Positions 66 to 20,125 of a stretch of DNA of 39,447 nt are shown here, piece after piece (position 1 is the first letter of the stretch; the number at the start of each line of letters is the position of its first letter). Origin of the DNA: a virus. Made by a program: the position numbers and the translations under genes. Location: positions 1 to 39,447 of IMG/VR virus record IMGVR_UViG_3300036828_001639; one strand, given 5' to 3'. The notes beneath the pieces are model-generated. The model saw nothing but the letters and a program-made list of their open reading frames with translations. It was not told the origin of the DNA and made no database searches.

Positions 66-359
66 TTATGAATTAAACTTGGCATTGTTGTAAGCAATGC
101 GCTGATTATGTGAATAAGGTGTTCGCTGAAAACATGGTTTACTGAATAACTCAGCTTTGGCTTTACGCTTCTGAAATTTTCGCTCTCGTTCAGCTTCTTC
201 TTGAACCCAAGGCAAGGATCTAAGTTTATCACCTAAGACAACATCAAGGTTTTCAAGAGTAAGCAACCAGCGAACATAGGTGTGCTTGAGATCAACAAGG
301 GCAGTGCCTTTGAATTTTCCGAAGTTAATTACTTCTTGAGATTGAGTAGGAGTATTCAT
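66..359 (-). CDS. Small protein with an exonuclease X C-terminal-like motif
   Basis: This 97-aa protein has near its N-terminus the segment FGKFKGTALVDL followed by YVRWLL. That pattern is typical of the small domain found at the C-terminus of exodeoxyribonuclease X and as a free-standing protein in many phages and plasmids (consensus close to FGKYKG..L......YL.WLL). The rest is strongly basic (RERKFQKRKAKAE) and may bind nucleic acid. No exonuclease catalytic domain is present, so it is not itself predicted to be a nuclease. Its ATG overlaps the stop of the upstream gene by four bases (ATGA), which points to translational coupling in the PL operon. Function unknown. Confidence 0.7.
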   Translation of the reverse strand: MNTPTQSQEVINFGKFKGTALVDLKHTYVRWLLTLENLDVVLGDKLRSLPWVQEEAERERKFQKRKAKAELFSKPCFQRTPYSHNQRIAYNNAKFNS

Positions 360-1324: not shown

Positions 1325-1906
1325 TTAAGGGCGATGCATTCTATCAGCTAAGTAGTAGATTCCAAATAAAGTCACCACAATCATTTGCCAGAAGATAAAG
1401 AAGAATAAGAATGCTATTACATAGTAAACAATATTATAAAACATTGTCGGAACAGCAAAAATATTTACATCATAAACTAGACGAACAATAAATATAAAAA
1501 CAGCACTTAATATACTAATCGCAGATAGGTAGCCAAAAAGGAGGGTTAAATATCGCCGACGACTCAACTTTGACTTTCTAAAACCCCCTTCAACTTGCTC
1601 ATTCAAAAAGGGGGCAGGAAGTGACATAACATTATCCATCGGCGGATAATTGTATGATGCAATTGCTGCCAATGAGCCTATATAAAAACCAGGTAAAATT
1701 TGCACAAAAGTTGATATATTATCAAATGCTTTATGGTTGAAAATATTTACACCTGTTGCACTACTATAATCGATTAATGCAAAAATTGAGCAAAACGCAA
1801 TAGCTAATATGCATGGCAAAATATATAGCAGAGAACGCAAATTATCCCCATTATTAGGGTATTGGACTTTCAAAAAATCAAAAGCTTTTAATGCGTAACT
1901 GAACAT
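1325..1906 (-). CDS. Four-helix inner-membrane protein, RexB-like by position and topology
   Basis: This 193-aa protein has four clear membrane helices, at about residues 24-46, 67-86, 120-147 and 155-187. A positively charged loop (RKSKLSRRRY) precedes the third, which favours a cytoplasmic loop there. No family motif was recognised. It starts 11 bp after the 325-aa gene, behind an AGGTG ribosome binding site, and is followed by a terminator. Together they form the last two genes of the operon headed by the CI-like repressor. Lambda has rexA (soluble sensor) and rexB (four-helix channel) in this same order and place. An exclusion or ion-channel role is inferred from context and topology only. 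KwaA of Kiwa is also a small four-helix protein, but the gene order differs and no homology was seen. Confidence 0.8.
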   Translation of the reverse strand: MFSYALKAFDFLKVQYPNNGDNLRSLLYILPCILAIAFCSIFALIDYSSATGVNIFNHKAFDNISTFVQILPGFYIGSLAAIASYNYPPMDNVMSLPAPFLNEQVEGGFRKSKLSRRRYLTLLFGYLSAISILSAVFIFIVRLVYDVNIFAVPTMFYNIVYYVIAFLFFFIFWQMIVVTLFGIYYLADRMHRP

Positions 1907-1917
1907 AAATCACCTAT

Positions 1918-2895
1918 CTAAAATAATCTCCATACCTCATTTAAGAATATCTGATTTATTTGTGTGTTATCAGGGTGGGCGCTTCTACCCCTGGCAGGGT
2001 CGAAAGATTTTTTTAATACAAAGGCTGAATTTAAGCTATTAGTGCTATCTAGAGCAACAGTCTGATCTTGACCAGTTTCATTTTCAATAATAGCAAAAGT
2101 ACTTACATTGTTCAAATTCAGACTATTATTATTAGCTGTATTAATCAGTGAACGCAAGTAACTTTGAGGAGTATCATTTGCCTGTAAGGGGGTAACTTTG
2201 AAATCCAATGCACCTGTTAGTCGCACTAAACGCTGATTTGGGTCATTAAAATTTGATGTAACTTCACCTTTAAGTCTTATTCTATTTAGCCGTCCTGATC
2301 TGATTGCTTCTGCTAACAAATCACCCGCCATAGGGTAAAGGCTTGAAACAATATTAAATCTATGAATATCAGGAGTACCATCTGGATTGTTAGCATTATC
2401 TGGATTGGTAATTTGAAAAATACCTTCAGAATTAGGAGTAATTCTCTTAAGACCTCTTAAGTACCAATTTAGCGTTTTAACTAAAACGGAAACGGGCATG
2501 CCAACTACATGTTCTATACCAATTGATGCTAAAAGAGGCTGGTTTGGATTTAATTTTATTACACAATGACACAGATGTTTAACACTTTGATCTTTACCAC
2601 GTAATTGAACATCATCTGCACCAGTCAATCTATTTCTAAGTGTTCGATTGGGGGCTAAGCCATCATAGTAACCAAATACGATTTCAATTTTACTTGCAGT
2701 AACAACCAAGTGTTCAATGGTTGTGCTGTATTGGTTACTGTTAAAAACATATGCAGTTGCCAAGTTGCTTAGATTGTTTTTTAGTAGTGTAAAAGCATCA
2801 TGAATCTTCACATGATCTATTGGAGGTAAATTGTCTGGTTTTCCTCTGGTTTTGAAGCAAAATTCATAGTATTGAATTATAATTTTATCAGCCAT
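1918..2895 (-). CDS. Soluble 325-aa protein of the immunity region, RexA-like by position
   Basis: A cytoplasmic protein with no membrane helix, signal peptide or recognised catalytic motif. The middle (about 118-150) alternates hydrophobic strands and a helix (LLASIGIEHVVGMPVSVLVK). A second strand-rich region lies near 180-235 (SLYPMAGDLLAEAIRSGRLN), and the C-terminus is polar with many Asn residues. It is the third gene of the repressor operon, preceded by an AAGGAG site seven bases from the ATG and by a possible leader peptide. A four-helix membrane protein follows after 11 bp. The pair has the layout of rexA-rexB. RexA is 279 aa, so the length is comparable, but I cannot show sequence homology. 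Expression in the lysogen together with the repressor is inferred from the operon. Confidence 0.8.
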   Translation of the reverse strand: MADKIIIQYYEFCFKTRGKPDNLPPIDHVKIHDAFTLLKNNLSNLATAYVFNSNQYSTTIEHLVVTASKIEIVFGYYDGLAPNRTLRNRLTGADDVQLRGKDQSVKHLCHCVIKLNPNQPLLASIGIEHVVGMPVSVLVKTLNWYLRGLKRITPNSEGIFQITNPDNANNPDGTPDIHRFNIVSSLYPMAGDLLAEAIRSGRLNRIRLKGEVTSNFNDPNQRLVRLTGALDFKVTPLQANDTPQSYLRSLINTANNNSLNLNNVSTFAIIENETGQDQTVALDSTNSLNSAFVLKKSFDPARGRSAHPDNTQINQIFLNEVWRLF

Positions 2896-2974: not shown

Positions 2975-2998
2975 ACTGCGTCGGGTTCGCAGTTTTTT
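2975..2998 (+). terminator. Rightward-facing intrinsic terminator inside a leftward operon
   Basis: ACTGCG (2975-2980) and CGCAGT (2988-2993) form a stem followed by six T residues on the plus strand. All neighbouring genes are on the minus strand, so this hairpin can only stop antisense transcription or act as an RNA element in the leader of the 325-aa gene. It overlaps the stop codon of the 102-aa gene. The local sequence is richer in G and C than its surroundings. Confidence 0.55.
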
Positions 2999-3305
2999 AA
3001 TCTTTTATATTTGAATACTGTTCTAAAAATTCATCTATCCAACCTTGTGCCACATCAAGATTGGTAATGTCAGTTAACTTTAGATTGGTTTCTTCTGCTT
3101 CGTTAAAGCCTTCAATAATGGCCTCAAAGATGTTTGCTTCGGTAATAACCTCACGTGCAATTTCCGCAGCGTCATAACTTTGCTTGGCTTTTTTAAGTGA
3201 GGCTATTTGTTTATCAATTCCTGCACCAATTTTAGCTAAAGCCAATTTAAATTCTTGACGATTAATTGTTAGCGCAGTTTTGTATTTATTGAGTGTTGCG
3301 ATCAT
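2997..3305 (-). CDS. Hypothetical 102-aa protein between the repressor and the Rex-like pair
   Basis: Small, mostly helical, acidic 102-aa protein with no membrane segment. It begins at ATG 3305-3303, behind a GAGAATGTT ribosome binding region, 29 bp after the repressor gene. The N-terminal 45 residues are Lys/Ala-rich and amphipathic. The C-terminal half is acidic (EGFNEAEETN). No family was recognised. The gene is placed to be made with the repressor in the lysogen, so roles in lysogenic conversion, repressor modulation or exclusion are all possible. It ends inside the stem of the plus-strand terminator at 2975-2998. Confidence 0.65.
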   Translation of the reverse strand: MIATLNKYKTALTINRQEFKLALAKIGAGIDKQIASLKKAKQSYDAAEIAREVITEANIFEAIIEGFNEAEETNLKLTDITNLDVAQGWIDEFLEQYSNIKD

Positions 3306-3333: not shown

Positions 3334-4077
3334 CTATCCAGCTCGCCAGAATTGACGCCCCATTACTTTAAAATTTAAACCGTTTAATTCACTCACTTCA
3401 CGATCTCGATATTTGGGATTGAGACTATGTAAGCTTAATTTTCCACCTTCCTCCTTGAATATCTGCTTTATCATGCCTTCACCTTCAAAATAAACAGCAT
3501 ATATTTCGCCATCTATAATATCGGTTTGAGAGATATCGATTCCCACCAGGTCACCATCATGAATAAAGTCAGACATGCTATCGCCTTTAGCCTTAATGAT
3601 TCTCATGCTTTTTGGGTCAACATATTTCTTTTGAAAGAATGATGGAGGAAAAGGAAATTTCCCATTAATAACATCAAAATGAAACTCTATAGATTCACCA
3701 GTACCGCATGAAAAGTTTGCTTCCACTACATCAATCCAAATAAATCCATTTTCAATTTCATAGTCCACAACTGTTGGCTCATGGATATCATTAACATCGA
3801 ATGAAGATTCTTCTTTTCGTGTTAACCCATGTTTATCCATAAATTCTTGCATATTAAAGTTATTTTTCTTTGGTTCATTCTCGCCAGTTAATAACCAGTC
3901 TTGTGATGTCTTAAGTACTTTTGCCAAGGATGGTAAGAATTCAGCTTTAGGAATATTTGTTCCTGCAACCCATTTAGACACAGCACCTTTTGTTGCGCCT
4001 GTGGCTTCTACTAAATCAACTTGTCGAATTTTTAGCTCTGTCATTCTTTGAATTATTCGGTCGCTGATAGTGCTCAT
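3334..4077 (-). CDS. CI-like phage repressor, HTH plus S24/LexA self-cleaving domain
   Basis: This 247-aa protein carries an N-terminal helix-turn-helix (residues about 5-60, with the recognition segment ATKGAVSKWVAGTNIPK). A C-terminal LexA/S24 peptidase fold follows. The expected self-cleavage dipeptide is Cys124-Gly125. The catalytic serine is Ser167 in GDSMSDF and the lysine is Lys204 in EGMIKQI. It should bind the 16-bp operators at 4096-4177 and 1191-1260 as a dimer, keep the prophage silent, and be inactivated by RecA-stimulated autocleavage after DNA damage. The start was set at ATG 4077, which has GAGG upstream. An in-frame extension to 4113 would run through the operator. It heads the operon ending at 1325 and is probably autoregulated through the 4096-4111 site. 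Confidence 0.95.
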   Translation of the reverse strand: MSTISDRIIQRMTELKIRQVDLVEATGATKGAVSKWVAGTNIPKAEFLPSLAKVLKTSQDWLLTGENEPKKNNFNMQEFMDKHGLTRKEESSFDVNDIHEPTVVDYEIENGFIWIDVVEANFSCGTGESIEFHFDVINGKFPFPPSFFQKKYVDPKSMRIIKAKGDSMSDFIHDGDLVGIDISQTDIIDGEIYAVYFEGEGMIKQIFKEEGGKLSLHSLNPKYRDREVSELNGLNFKVMGRQFWRAG

Positions 4078-4095
4078 AAAAACATCCTCTTTAAT

Positions 4096-4177
4096 GTTTC
4101 CTATAGTAAACAAACATATTGATTTAGAAATAAACTTATGGTTTACTAATGGAAACTAAAAGTTTATAAAGGTAAAC
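4096..4177 (+). promoter_or_regulatory. Rightward early promoter PR and operator cluster (OR-like)
   Basis: Three 16-bp palindromic sites lie between the divergent repressor and Cro genes: GTTTCCTATAGTAAAC at 4096-4111, GTTTACTAATGGAAAC at 4141-4156, and GTTTATAAAGGTAAAC at 4162-4177. A degenerate fourth may lie at 4120-4135, which would give 21-bp spacing to the next. PR reads TTGATT (4119-4124), 17 bp, TTTACT (4142-4147). The middle site covers the -10 box and the right site covers the cro ribosome binding site. The left site lies where the repressor promoter is expected. Binding by CI or Cro would therefore switch the two directions. Confidence 0.8.
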
Positions 4178-4830: not shown

Positions 4831-5721
4831 ATGGCTAGAGCAAGGAATATAAAACCTTCGTTCTTTACCAATGATGAACTAAGCGAACTAAACCCATTAG
4901 CGCGCCTCTTGTTTATAGGTATGTGGACAGTAGCGGATTATAAGGGATGTTTTGAGTACAAACCAAAACGCCTAAAAGTCCAGTTACTTCCTTACGACGA
5001 ATGCAATGTTGAAGAACTCACGATTAATCTAGAAAAATCTGGATTTATCGCGATCTATACCGTTCAAGGTCAACAGTATGGAAAAGTGATCAATTTTGAG
5101 AAGCATCAGAACCCTCACAAGAACGAAAGAGAGAAAGGTTCGGAACTTCCAGACATTGATCAAAAGGATGAAGAAAACCTAAAGTTTACTAAGGACTTAG
5201 GAAATATCGAGATTAATCACGATGAAAACGGAACTGATCGTGCTGATTCCCTTAACCTGATTCCTGATTCCCTCTTACTGAAACCTGAAAACTTATTACC
5301 CGAATCGGAAACAAAAACGGCTTCGCCTAAATTTAATTTTAAAACTGAATTAAAAAAATTAGGTGTTAGTGATGAATTGGCAACTGAGTTCTTGCAAGTA
5401 CGAAAAGCGAAGCAGGCAGTGAATACCAAAAATGCATTTGAAAGTTTGGTCACTGAAATCGGCAAAACAAAATTAACCATAGTTCAAGCCATTGAATACT
5501 GTTTGAAACGTCAAAAGCCGTGGGGATCGTTTAAAGCTTCTTGGTACCAAAACGAACAACAGCAAAATATCCATTTCCAACCTGGTGCTAAAACACAGCC
5601 TCAAAACTCTTGGGCTGAATACAATCAAGGCTTTGCTCAACAACTCAATCAAACACTTGAGGAGCCGATTGATATAACCCCAAAAAAGTCGGTTCTGATT
5701 GAGGAGGTGGGACATGCTTAA
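4831..5721 (+). CDS. Phage replication initiator, lambda O-like/DnaD-like
   Basis: A 296-aa replication protein. Residues about 1-105 form the winged-helix type N-domain common to phage replication organisers (ARNIKPSFFTNDELSELNPL, then LLPYDECNVEELT and INFEKHQNPHKNE). A low-complexity Asp/Glu/Ser linker (about 110-165) follows. A C-terminal helical domain near 170-235 ends in the conserved KPWGSFKASWY. It should bind the phage origin, which in lambda-type phages lies inside the O gene (the linker-coding region is the candidate), and recruit the helicase-loader product of the next gene. It overlaps that gene by eight bases (5714-5721). Confidence 0.85.
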   Translation: MARARNIKPSFFTNDELSELNPLARLLFIGMWTVADYKGCFEYKPKRLKVQLLPYDECNVEELTINLEKSGFIAIYTVQGQQYGKVINFEKHQNPHKNEREKGSELPDIDQKDEENLKFTKDLGNIEINHDENGTDRADSLNLIPDSLLLKPENLLPESETKTASPKFNFKTELKKLGVSDELATEFLQVRKAKQAVNTKNAFESLVTEIGKTKLTIVQAIEYCLKRQKPWGSFKASWYQNEQQQNIHFQPGAKTQPQNSWAEYNQGFAQQLNQTLEEPIDITPKKSVLIEEVGHA

Positions 5722-6385
5722 TGTGATCACCAAAGAGGACGAATTACTCCAAACTTTGCAAGCTTTGTTTGGCGGGCAGTTCAAGAAGCGTTACGAAAAC
5801 CTTGATGCACAAGCAATGATTATGATCGTACGTGGCGCATTGATGAACTTAAGTGATGACCAATTTAGACAGGGTATGACTCGTTTGTATTCAAGCCGTT
5901 TCTGCCCTGATATCGCAGAGTTTAGAGCTTGGTGCGTTTCAGGTTCATGGCAAACAGCTCAAGAAGCTTGGCAGCGTGCTTGTGATTATTCAAAGCAGTC
6001 AGAAGCGGAATTAATCAAATCAACTTTGAAAATTACCAAATTGGCAAAGCTTGCTTGGGATTCAGTTTATTGGATGGTTGTGCAAGGTGATATGAAATCA
6101 GCTTATCAGCAGTTCAAAACGCTTTATGAAGATTATGTTGCTAAGGCACAAACACTTGGTAAGCAGCAAGAATGGTATGTGCCACCGGTGATGATTGGCT
6201 CAAAAGAACCAGTGAAGTCTATTCCTAAAACTTATAAATCAAATCTAACGGATGAGCAGAAATCTATTGCTGATCTCACTACAAAAATTATGGCAACTGG
6301 CAAGTCTTGGAAAGATGCATTTCAAGAAGCTCAAATGGAAATTCGAGGTGTCGTGAAGCCAATGATGCAAGGGGAGCTGGTATGA
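5714..6385 (+). CDS. Helicase loader, lambda P-like replication protein
   Basis: A 223-aa protein with the pattern of lambda P relatives: a helical N-domain, then FCPDIAEFRAWC (compare FLPSPGQFVAWC in lambda P), then AWDSVYWMVVQGDM and a C-terminal segment with KEPVKSIPKTY. It is expected to bring the host DnaB helicase to the origin complex formed by the O-like protein. The ATG at 5714 was chosen because GGAGGTGGGAC lies directly upstream. An upstream TTG at 5699 would place the start inside that ribosome binding site. The adenine-methylase gene overlaps its stop as ATGA. Confidence 0.8.
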   Translation: MLNVITKEDELLQTLQALFGGQFKKRYENLDAQAMIMIVRGALMNLSDDQFRQGMTRLYSSRFCPDIAEFRAWCVSGSWQTAQEAWQRACDYSKQSEAELIKSTLKITKLAKLAWDSVYWMVVQGDMKSAYQQFKTLYEDYVAKAQTLGKQQEWYVPPVMIGSKEPVKSIPKTYKSNLTDEQKSIADLTTKIMATGKSWKDAFQEAQMEIRGVVKPMMQGELV

Positions 6386-19822: not shown

Positions 19823-20125
19823 ATGGACATTAAATCAATTGTGGTGAACCCACCTCAAAAAGGCATATATGTTGACCTTCAATGTAATTTTGATCATATA
19901 TACCTTGATATTGGCAATTGCTATTTAGAGTTTATCAAGATAAACCAAGATACGTTCCAATTAATAAAATCGCACTCGGCAGATTCTCCAAACCTTCATC
20001 CAGTAGTTTCGTGGTCAGGTGTTTTATGGCATCGGCAGGAAGCTCTCGAAGCGAATCAATCATTGACTGCTTATCTTCAGGGTCTAAATCAGACTGATTT
20101 ATCTTATTCTCTAAAATTGCCTTAA
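19823..20125 (+). CDS. Doubtful 100-codon frame, possibly a truncated gene
   Basis: The first 37 codons (MDIKSIVVNPPQKGIYVDLQ onwards) lie outside any other gene and have a good AAAGGA site before the ATG. The remainder is antisense to the well-formed 19935-20429 gene. One reading is that a rightward gene was cut by insertion of the leftward unit and now reads into antisense sequence. Another is that it is a genuine overlapping gene. The predicted product has no recognised domain. Confidence 0.35.
   Translation: MDIKSIVVNPPQKGIYVDLQCNFDHIYLDIGNCYLEFIKINQDTFQLIKSHSADSPNLHPVVSWSGVLWHRQEALEANQSLTAYLQGLNQTDLSYSLKLP

Follow-up and report, generated by a model that had tools for sequence, protein, structure and literature searches.

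A diverged PDC-M53/RexABpp gene pair, probably an abortive-infection cassette, in the rexAB position of a phage immunity region

Two adjacent genes, A and B, in a viral DNA stretch of 39,447 nucleotides (IMG/VR record IMGVR_UViG_3300036828_001639, positions 1 to 39,447; hereafter the window) lie behind a phage repressor and, judged by sequence, constitute a diverged Moraxellaceae member of the PDC-M53/RexABpp family. By analogy with an experimentally tested relative, and with a probability that we put at roughly 0.8, the pair is a prophage cassette for abortive infection (superinfection exclusion) in which A would sense infection and activate the membrane effector B. New here are the recognition that PDC-M53 is RexABpp and the range of elements found to carry the pair.

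An immunity region on the lambda plan

The block that contains the pair follows the plan of the lambda immunity region. Reading leftward on the minus strand, it comprises a CI-type repressor with an S24 peptidase domain (3334..4113; Peptidase_S24, 3.9e-22; PHROG 4, 1.3e-49), listed from a TTG start with an alternative ATG start at 4077; a 102-aa gene between the repressor and A (2997..3305; PHROG 15679, 4e-58); gene A (1918..2895; 325 aa; PDC-M53A/RexApp family), predicted to encode a DNA-binding sensor of RexA/RdgC fold; and gene B (1325..1906; 193 aa; PDC-M53B/RexBpp family), the product of which is a predicted effector with four helices in the inner membrane. Gene A lies directly upstream of B, and 11 bp separate its stop from the B start. 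Just 3' of B, in the t-imm position, is an intrinsic terminator-like hairpin with a T-tract (1303-1285, minus strand), followed by a PL-like promoter on the same strand (1217-1190; TTGACA-16-TAAACT, with TG before the -10). Across the 39.4 kb of the window there are six copies of the palindrome GTTTnYnnnnRnAAAC against 0.46 expected, a count reached by none of 100 shuffles, and five of the six copies fall in the two intergenic regions bordering the block. Two are at PL (GTTTACCAAAGGAAAC, 1191-1206, overlapping the promoter; GTTTATTTAAAGAAAC, 1224-1239) and three precede the repressor (GTTTCCTATAGTAAAC, 4096-4111; GTTTACTAATGGAAAC, 4141-4156; GTTTATAAAGGTAAAC, 4162-4177), thus marking candidate OL and OR operators. 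The sixth perfect operator-like palindrome, GTTTATCAAGATAAAC, is found at 19930-19945, far from the immunity region.

The initial annotation had described these parts, from repressor to PL/OL and all leftward, and had located them correctly. Its argument that the pair sits in the lambda rexAB position also holds, since the gene order is that of lambda cI-rexA-rexB and the candidate operators and terminator are placed as in lambda. Lambda RexAB likewise lies between cI and t-imm/PL and joins a soluble protein to a four-helix membrane protein, although the window proteins, at 325 and 193 aa, are longer than lambda RexA and RexB (279 and 144 aa).

Neither a promoter-like match nor a terminator-like site was found on the minus strand between the repressor and the start of A, from which we infer that A and B are co-transcribed with the repressor. 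In the gap separating the 102-aa gene from A, a hairpin at 2972-2996 carries a plus-strand T-tract, although that strand has no obvious gene end at this place. A possible 15-codon leader ORF just 5' of A was dropped, being absent from the nearest relative of the pair. The leftmost ORF of the window (66-359; 97 aa) matches Pfam QSregVF_b with an E of 3e-4, just under the curated cut-off.

The resident bacterium of the phage is probably Acinetobacter. The nearest relative, L089, comes from Candidatus Acinetobacter avistercoris and encodes a B protein 87% identical to window B; there a different repressor precedes A and B, with a homologue of the 102-aa gene (100 aa) in between. The A-B pair also stands beside a repressor in L002, which with L089 makes up the nearest relatives. 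A second A-B pair, different from that of L089, is present in the same Candidatus A. avistercoris genome bin on another contig (L112). The 102-aa gene is outside the defence family. PHROG 15679 is a kept repressor neighbour in L089 and in Acinetobacter phages YMC11/11/R3177 and AM106, where the protein is 84% identical, and around these homologues both the repressor and the downstream cargo vary. In R3177 and AM106, other small genes take the place of A-B behind the repressor and the 102-aa homologue, which suggests that cargo can be exchanged at this site.

The pair belongs to PDC-M53

Both window proteins match models of PDC-M53, a two-gene 'phage defence candidate' in PADLOC-DB v2.0.0 that is listed apart from the PADLOC RexA and RexB models. 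Window A matches PDC-M53A at 1.1e-10 over residues 6-298 and window B matches PDC-M53B at 2.5e-36 over residues 8-193, and their gene order is the one usual throughout the family. Window A is an outlying member, matched by one of the five M53A models. Across 75 sampled family pairs, every B protein matches M53B and all but one of the A proteins (74 of 75) match that same M53A model. The window pair also matches PHROGs 8257 and 35178, the first of which is the B family (1.6e-30 for window B). Hence the earlier view that no known family fits either protein is not supported. Pfam and NCBIfam searches gave no family for A or B, and no meaningful match to either came from a profile search against PDB sequences. 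A single weak NCBIfam match of A to TreZ, far below the cut-off, was set aside, and scanning the 75 A relatives against Pfam returned scattered single matches only. Comparison with SLATT, proposed at the outset, yielded no Pfam match for B or A.

PDC-M53 and RexABpp are one family

One of the family loci, L084, lies in IMG/VR record 637000222_000004; the taxon number 637000222 is presumably that of KT2440, and the identification that follows is independent of this. In sequence, L084 encodes CI, a 137-aa protein, a 78-aa protein, A (330 aa) and B (188 aa). This is the order PP_3896-3897-3898-5643-5644 published for prophage P1 of Pseudomonas putida, in which hicAB2 is PP_3900-3899 (PMC12894663). 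In L084, too, a HicAB pair (5163-5752; HicA confirmed) lies directly behind A-B on the opposite strand. Moreover, six of the seven published RexBpp mutation positions carry the expected residue in L084 B (W25, F35, L55, S145, G153 and Y181); the seventh, T103, is off by one (T102), which we read as a probable numbering slip. Among approximately 500 ORFs of similar size, L084 B alone scored six in this residue fingerprint. On these sequence grounds the L084 pair is PP_5643/PP_5644. Since the same L084 proteins match the PADLOC models at 8e-157 (M53A) and 3e-72 (M53B), PDC-M53 and RexABpp are a single family. The paper describing RexABpp does not mention PADLOC (PMC12894663), and in the literature searched we found no other paper that links the two names and none that uses the name PDC-M53.

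This identity brings experimental evidence to the family. PP_5643/PP_5644 is the pair that a paper of January 2026 described as a phage-defence system and named RexABpp; both genes are required for defence (PMC12894663). The A protein binds DNA and, when overproduced, arrests growth only if B is present; suppressor mutations map to B. Depolarisation was not observed, contact between A and B was not seen by two-hybrid assay, and the activity of the repressor promoter was unaltered (PMC12894663). The initial suggestion that the pair may be undescribed therefore fails, as the family includes an experimentally tested member, whereas its Rex-like exclusion reading gains support from the requirement for both RexABpp genes and from the predicted RexA/RdgC-type fold of A.

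In both the window and RexABpp, A precedes B with a short gap, behind a CI repressor with small gene(s) between, and the two pairs share the fold class of A, the four membrane helices of B and the matching PADLOC models. They differ in sequence, with identities in the family alignment of approximately 13% for A and 27% for B, and in the number of small genes between repressor and A, which is one in the window (the 102-aa gene) and two in RexABpp. Window B also branches apart from RexBpp in the B tree, alongside other pairs of Moraxellaceae type. Its distant relationship to the pair that makes P. putida resistant to other phages makes the same function very probable for the window pair.

Protein A resembles lambda RexA in predicted fold

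AlphaFold2 models of A and B were built with the 75 family sequences. Protein A (pI 8.9) was modelled with a pLDDT of 90.8 and a pTM of 0.88; one hydrophobic window barely exceeds the usual threshold, yet the model is alpha/beta. When 1000 PDB chains ranked by Foldseek were passed to a structural aligner (VIA), lambda RexA (8twq) came first, with a Z of 6.8 over 193 residues and an rmsd of 15. It was followed by Iml3, CENP-N/Chl4 and RdgC, and all ten listed entries with Z of at least 5 belong to these four. The crystal-structure paper on RexA groups the protein with RdgC, Iml3 and Chl4 (PMC11077077). RexA was crystallised in a closed form (PMC11077077), which fits the large rmsd. With a Z below 8, the alignment is moderate evidence that A has a RexA/RdgC-type fold, strengthened by its agreement with the published DALI result for P. 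putida A, in which RexA has a Z of 8.8 (PMC12894663). Foldseek alone against the PDB was weak for A, with Iml3 best (E 1e-3). In a viral structure library, A and B had matches in one and the same phage, Siphoviridae sp. ctylc9, strong for A (E 5e-10) and weak for B (E 0.23).

Comparison by sequence does not establish homology to lambda RexA or RexB. Neither window protein matched Pfam PF15969/PF15968 or the PADLOC RexA and RexB models, which lambda RexA and RexB themselves match strongly. Profile-profile comparison, which had been proposed along with structure prediction, gave no significant match of A to RexA, for which the profile was a shallow one of five sequences, and a weak, partial match of B to RexB. 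For P. putida A, the published HHpred value is 98% (PMC12894663). Structure prediction did return lambda RexA as the best match for A. Of the original description of the pair as an unrelated or strongly diverged exclusion system, 'unrelated' is probably wrong for A, which has a predicted fold in common with RexA.

The fold also bears on a Kiwa-type assignment. KwaA and KwaB are a four-helix membrane protein and a soluble partner of approximately 315-325 aa, and in sizes and topology they are similar to the window pair. Neither window protein, however, matched a PADLOC KwaA or KwaB model even at E 10, whereas the M53 models were matched; the gene order in the window is soluble, then membrane; and the best folds for A are those of the RexA/RdgC group. 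We consider a Kiwa-type system highly improbable.

Protein B is a predicted four-helix membrane protein

The B model (pLDDT 93.0) has four long helices, in line with four hydrophobic segments in the sequence. The N-terminal side and the loop joining helices 2 and 3 carry basic residues, a placement that predicts a cytoplasmic location for this loop and for both ends of the protein. Invariant or near-invariant positions are P31, the LPGFYIxxLAA stretch at 71-81, D91, R116-R117 and Y185. The last of these corresponds to suppressor site Y181 in L084/RexBpp numbering, the most constrained of the suppressor positions, which is occupied by Y in 69 of the 75 B proteins and by F in the other six.

The constraint at this site in B weighs against a reversal of roles, in which soluble A would be the toxic effector and membrane-bound B would restrain it, as in the Butters gp30/gp31 type of mycobacteriophage system. 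That type has the same two-gene layout, and such a reversal has been described for one Rex-like pair (see the discussion in PMC12894663). In the tested RexABpp, though, overproduction of A does no harm unless B is present, and the suppressors hit B (PMC12894663); the most constrained of their positions never departs from Y or F among the 75 B proteins examined and is retained as Y185 in the window. We therefore think such a reversal quite unlikely and retain B as the predicted effector. Other two-gene prophage defences of Rex type, as the window pair would be, are Sbash gp30/gp31 and CarolAnn gp44/gp43. Sbash gp30/gp31 showed no sequence match to the M53 models and profiles; a 165-aa Sbash protein, of the length of gp31, ranked fifth for B in the viral structure library, with a weak E of 0.65. 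The PDB structure list for B consisted of generic helical bundles (NINJ1, Z 8.6) and was left uninterpreted.

The partial hhalign match of B to RexB (44%, E 2e-4, spanning 59 columns; no reversed or shuffled control exceeded 1.3%) is no more than suggestive of sequence homology. Lambda Rex is known to depolarise the membrane, whereas depolarisation was not seen with RexABpp (PMC12894663). It is conceivable, though we would sooner bet against it, that the B family is an effector distinct from RexB, with a cytoplasmic beta-hairpin loop, a conserved Arg pair and a conserved GFYIxxLAA helix, coupled to a DNA clamp of RexA/RdgC fold and causing growth arrest of a non-depolarising kind; the same joint proposal holds that it forms a free-standing cassette that has spread in Pseudomonadota through tailed prophages, Tectiliviricetes phages and plasmids.

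The pair is kept together across diverse elements

Direct searches of viral contigs found one relative with window A and none with window B, so an alignment-based search was needed. Conducted with B, it returned 121 viral and 90 genome contigs, 80 of each of which were taken for analysis, and approximately 200 loci of the family were found. An A profile recognised an upstream A for 156 of 167 B genes, and several of the remainder run into a contig end. Across approximately 150 loci the same two genes occur in the same order, mostly with a gap of -14 to +16 bp (about 7 bp), a pairing beyond chance. Distance matrices of A and B from 75 non-redundant pairs are correlated (Mantel r = 0.77), with none of 5000 permutations as high and the best at 0.16.

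Where rows carry genome titles, nearly all are Pseudomonadota (alpha, beta and gamma), along with one Desulfobulbaceae bin. The pair also occurs in Moraxella phage Mcat23 and in the late regions of Shigella phage SfII and Salmonella phage F1055. The SfII version is present in nine of 5426 complete Escherichia coli genomes, each time under a hypothetical-protein annotation. Two Vibrio phages of only 13-15 kb, assigned to Tectiliviricetes, carry the pair near the genome end (L003:2821-4387 and L006:2836-4381), where its approximately 1.5 kb take up a large share of the genome. On the mobilizable Acinetobacter lwoffii plasmid pNL2 (L188:4975-6627), the pair stands beside mobilisation genes with no evident prophage context.

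A repressor was recognised within 2.5 kb upstream in at least 51 of 167 loci, a lower bound given the limited sensitivity of the home-made CI profile used; repressor linkage is common without being universal. In 86 of the 167 loci, which have enough upstream DNA, no repressor was recognised, which indicates that repressor-linked expression is not a family rule. These settings bear on the proposal that the pair mainly tunes the lysis-lysogeny switch of its own prophage, with A binding operator DNA near the repressor, as is reported for lambda RexA, and B as an accessory. In the window, the pair does lie beside CI, between OL and OR, and in lambda the action of RexA on the switch does not require RexB (PMC11077077). 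Against this, the pair is found with no switch nearby in the SfII and F1055 late regions, in the Tectiliviricetes Vibrio phages and on the Acinetobacter plasmid, and RexABpp did not alter the activity of the repressor promoter (PMC12894663). We regard a principal role in switch tuning as unlikely and favour exclusion of incoming phages.

A model for superinfection exclusion

Under the exclusion reading, the pair, placed behind the repressor, would probably be expressed from the repressor transcript in the lysogen. The four-helix inner-membrane protein B would be silent in an uninfected lysogen. Soluble, basic and predicted to have a RexA/RdgC fold, A probably binds DNA and may sense phage DNA, a replication intermediate, a protein-DNA complex or some other product of the incoming phage. 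Activated A would then trigger B via the cytoplasmic side of the latter, and B would damage membrane function and halt growth before the incoming phage finishes.

With PDC-M53 identified as RexABpp and A assigned a predicted RexA/RdgC fold, approximately 200 pairs, many of them annotated as hypothetical, gain a function that can be tested. They include those of SfII, nine E. coli genomes, a Moraxella phage, Acinetobacter, the Tectiliviricetes Vibrio phages and a mobilizable plasmid. Together they provide natural variants enough to explore what Rex-type sensors respond to and by what action their membrane partners work, a question that dates from Benzer's rII work.
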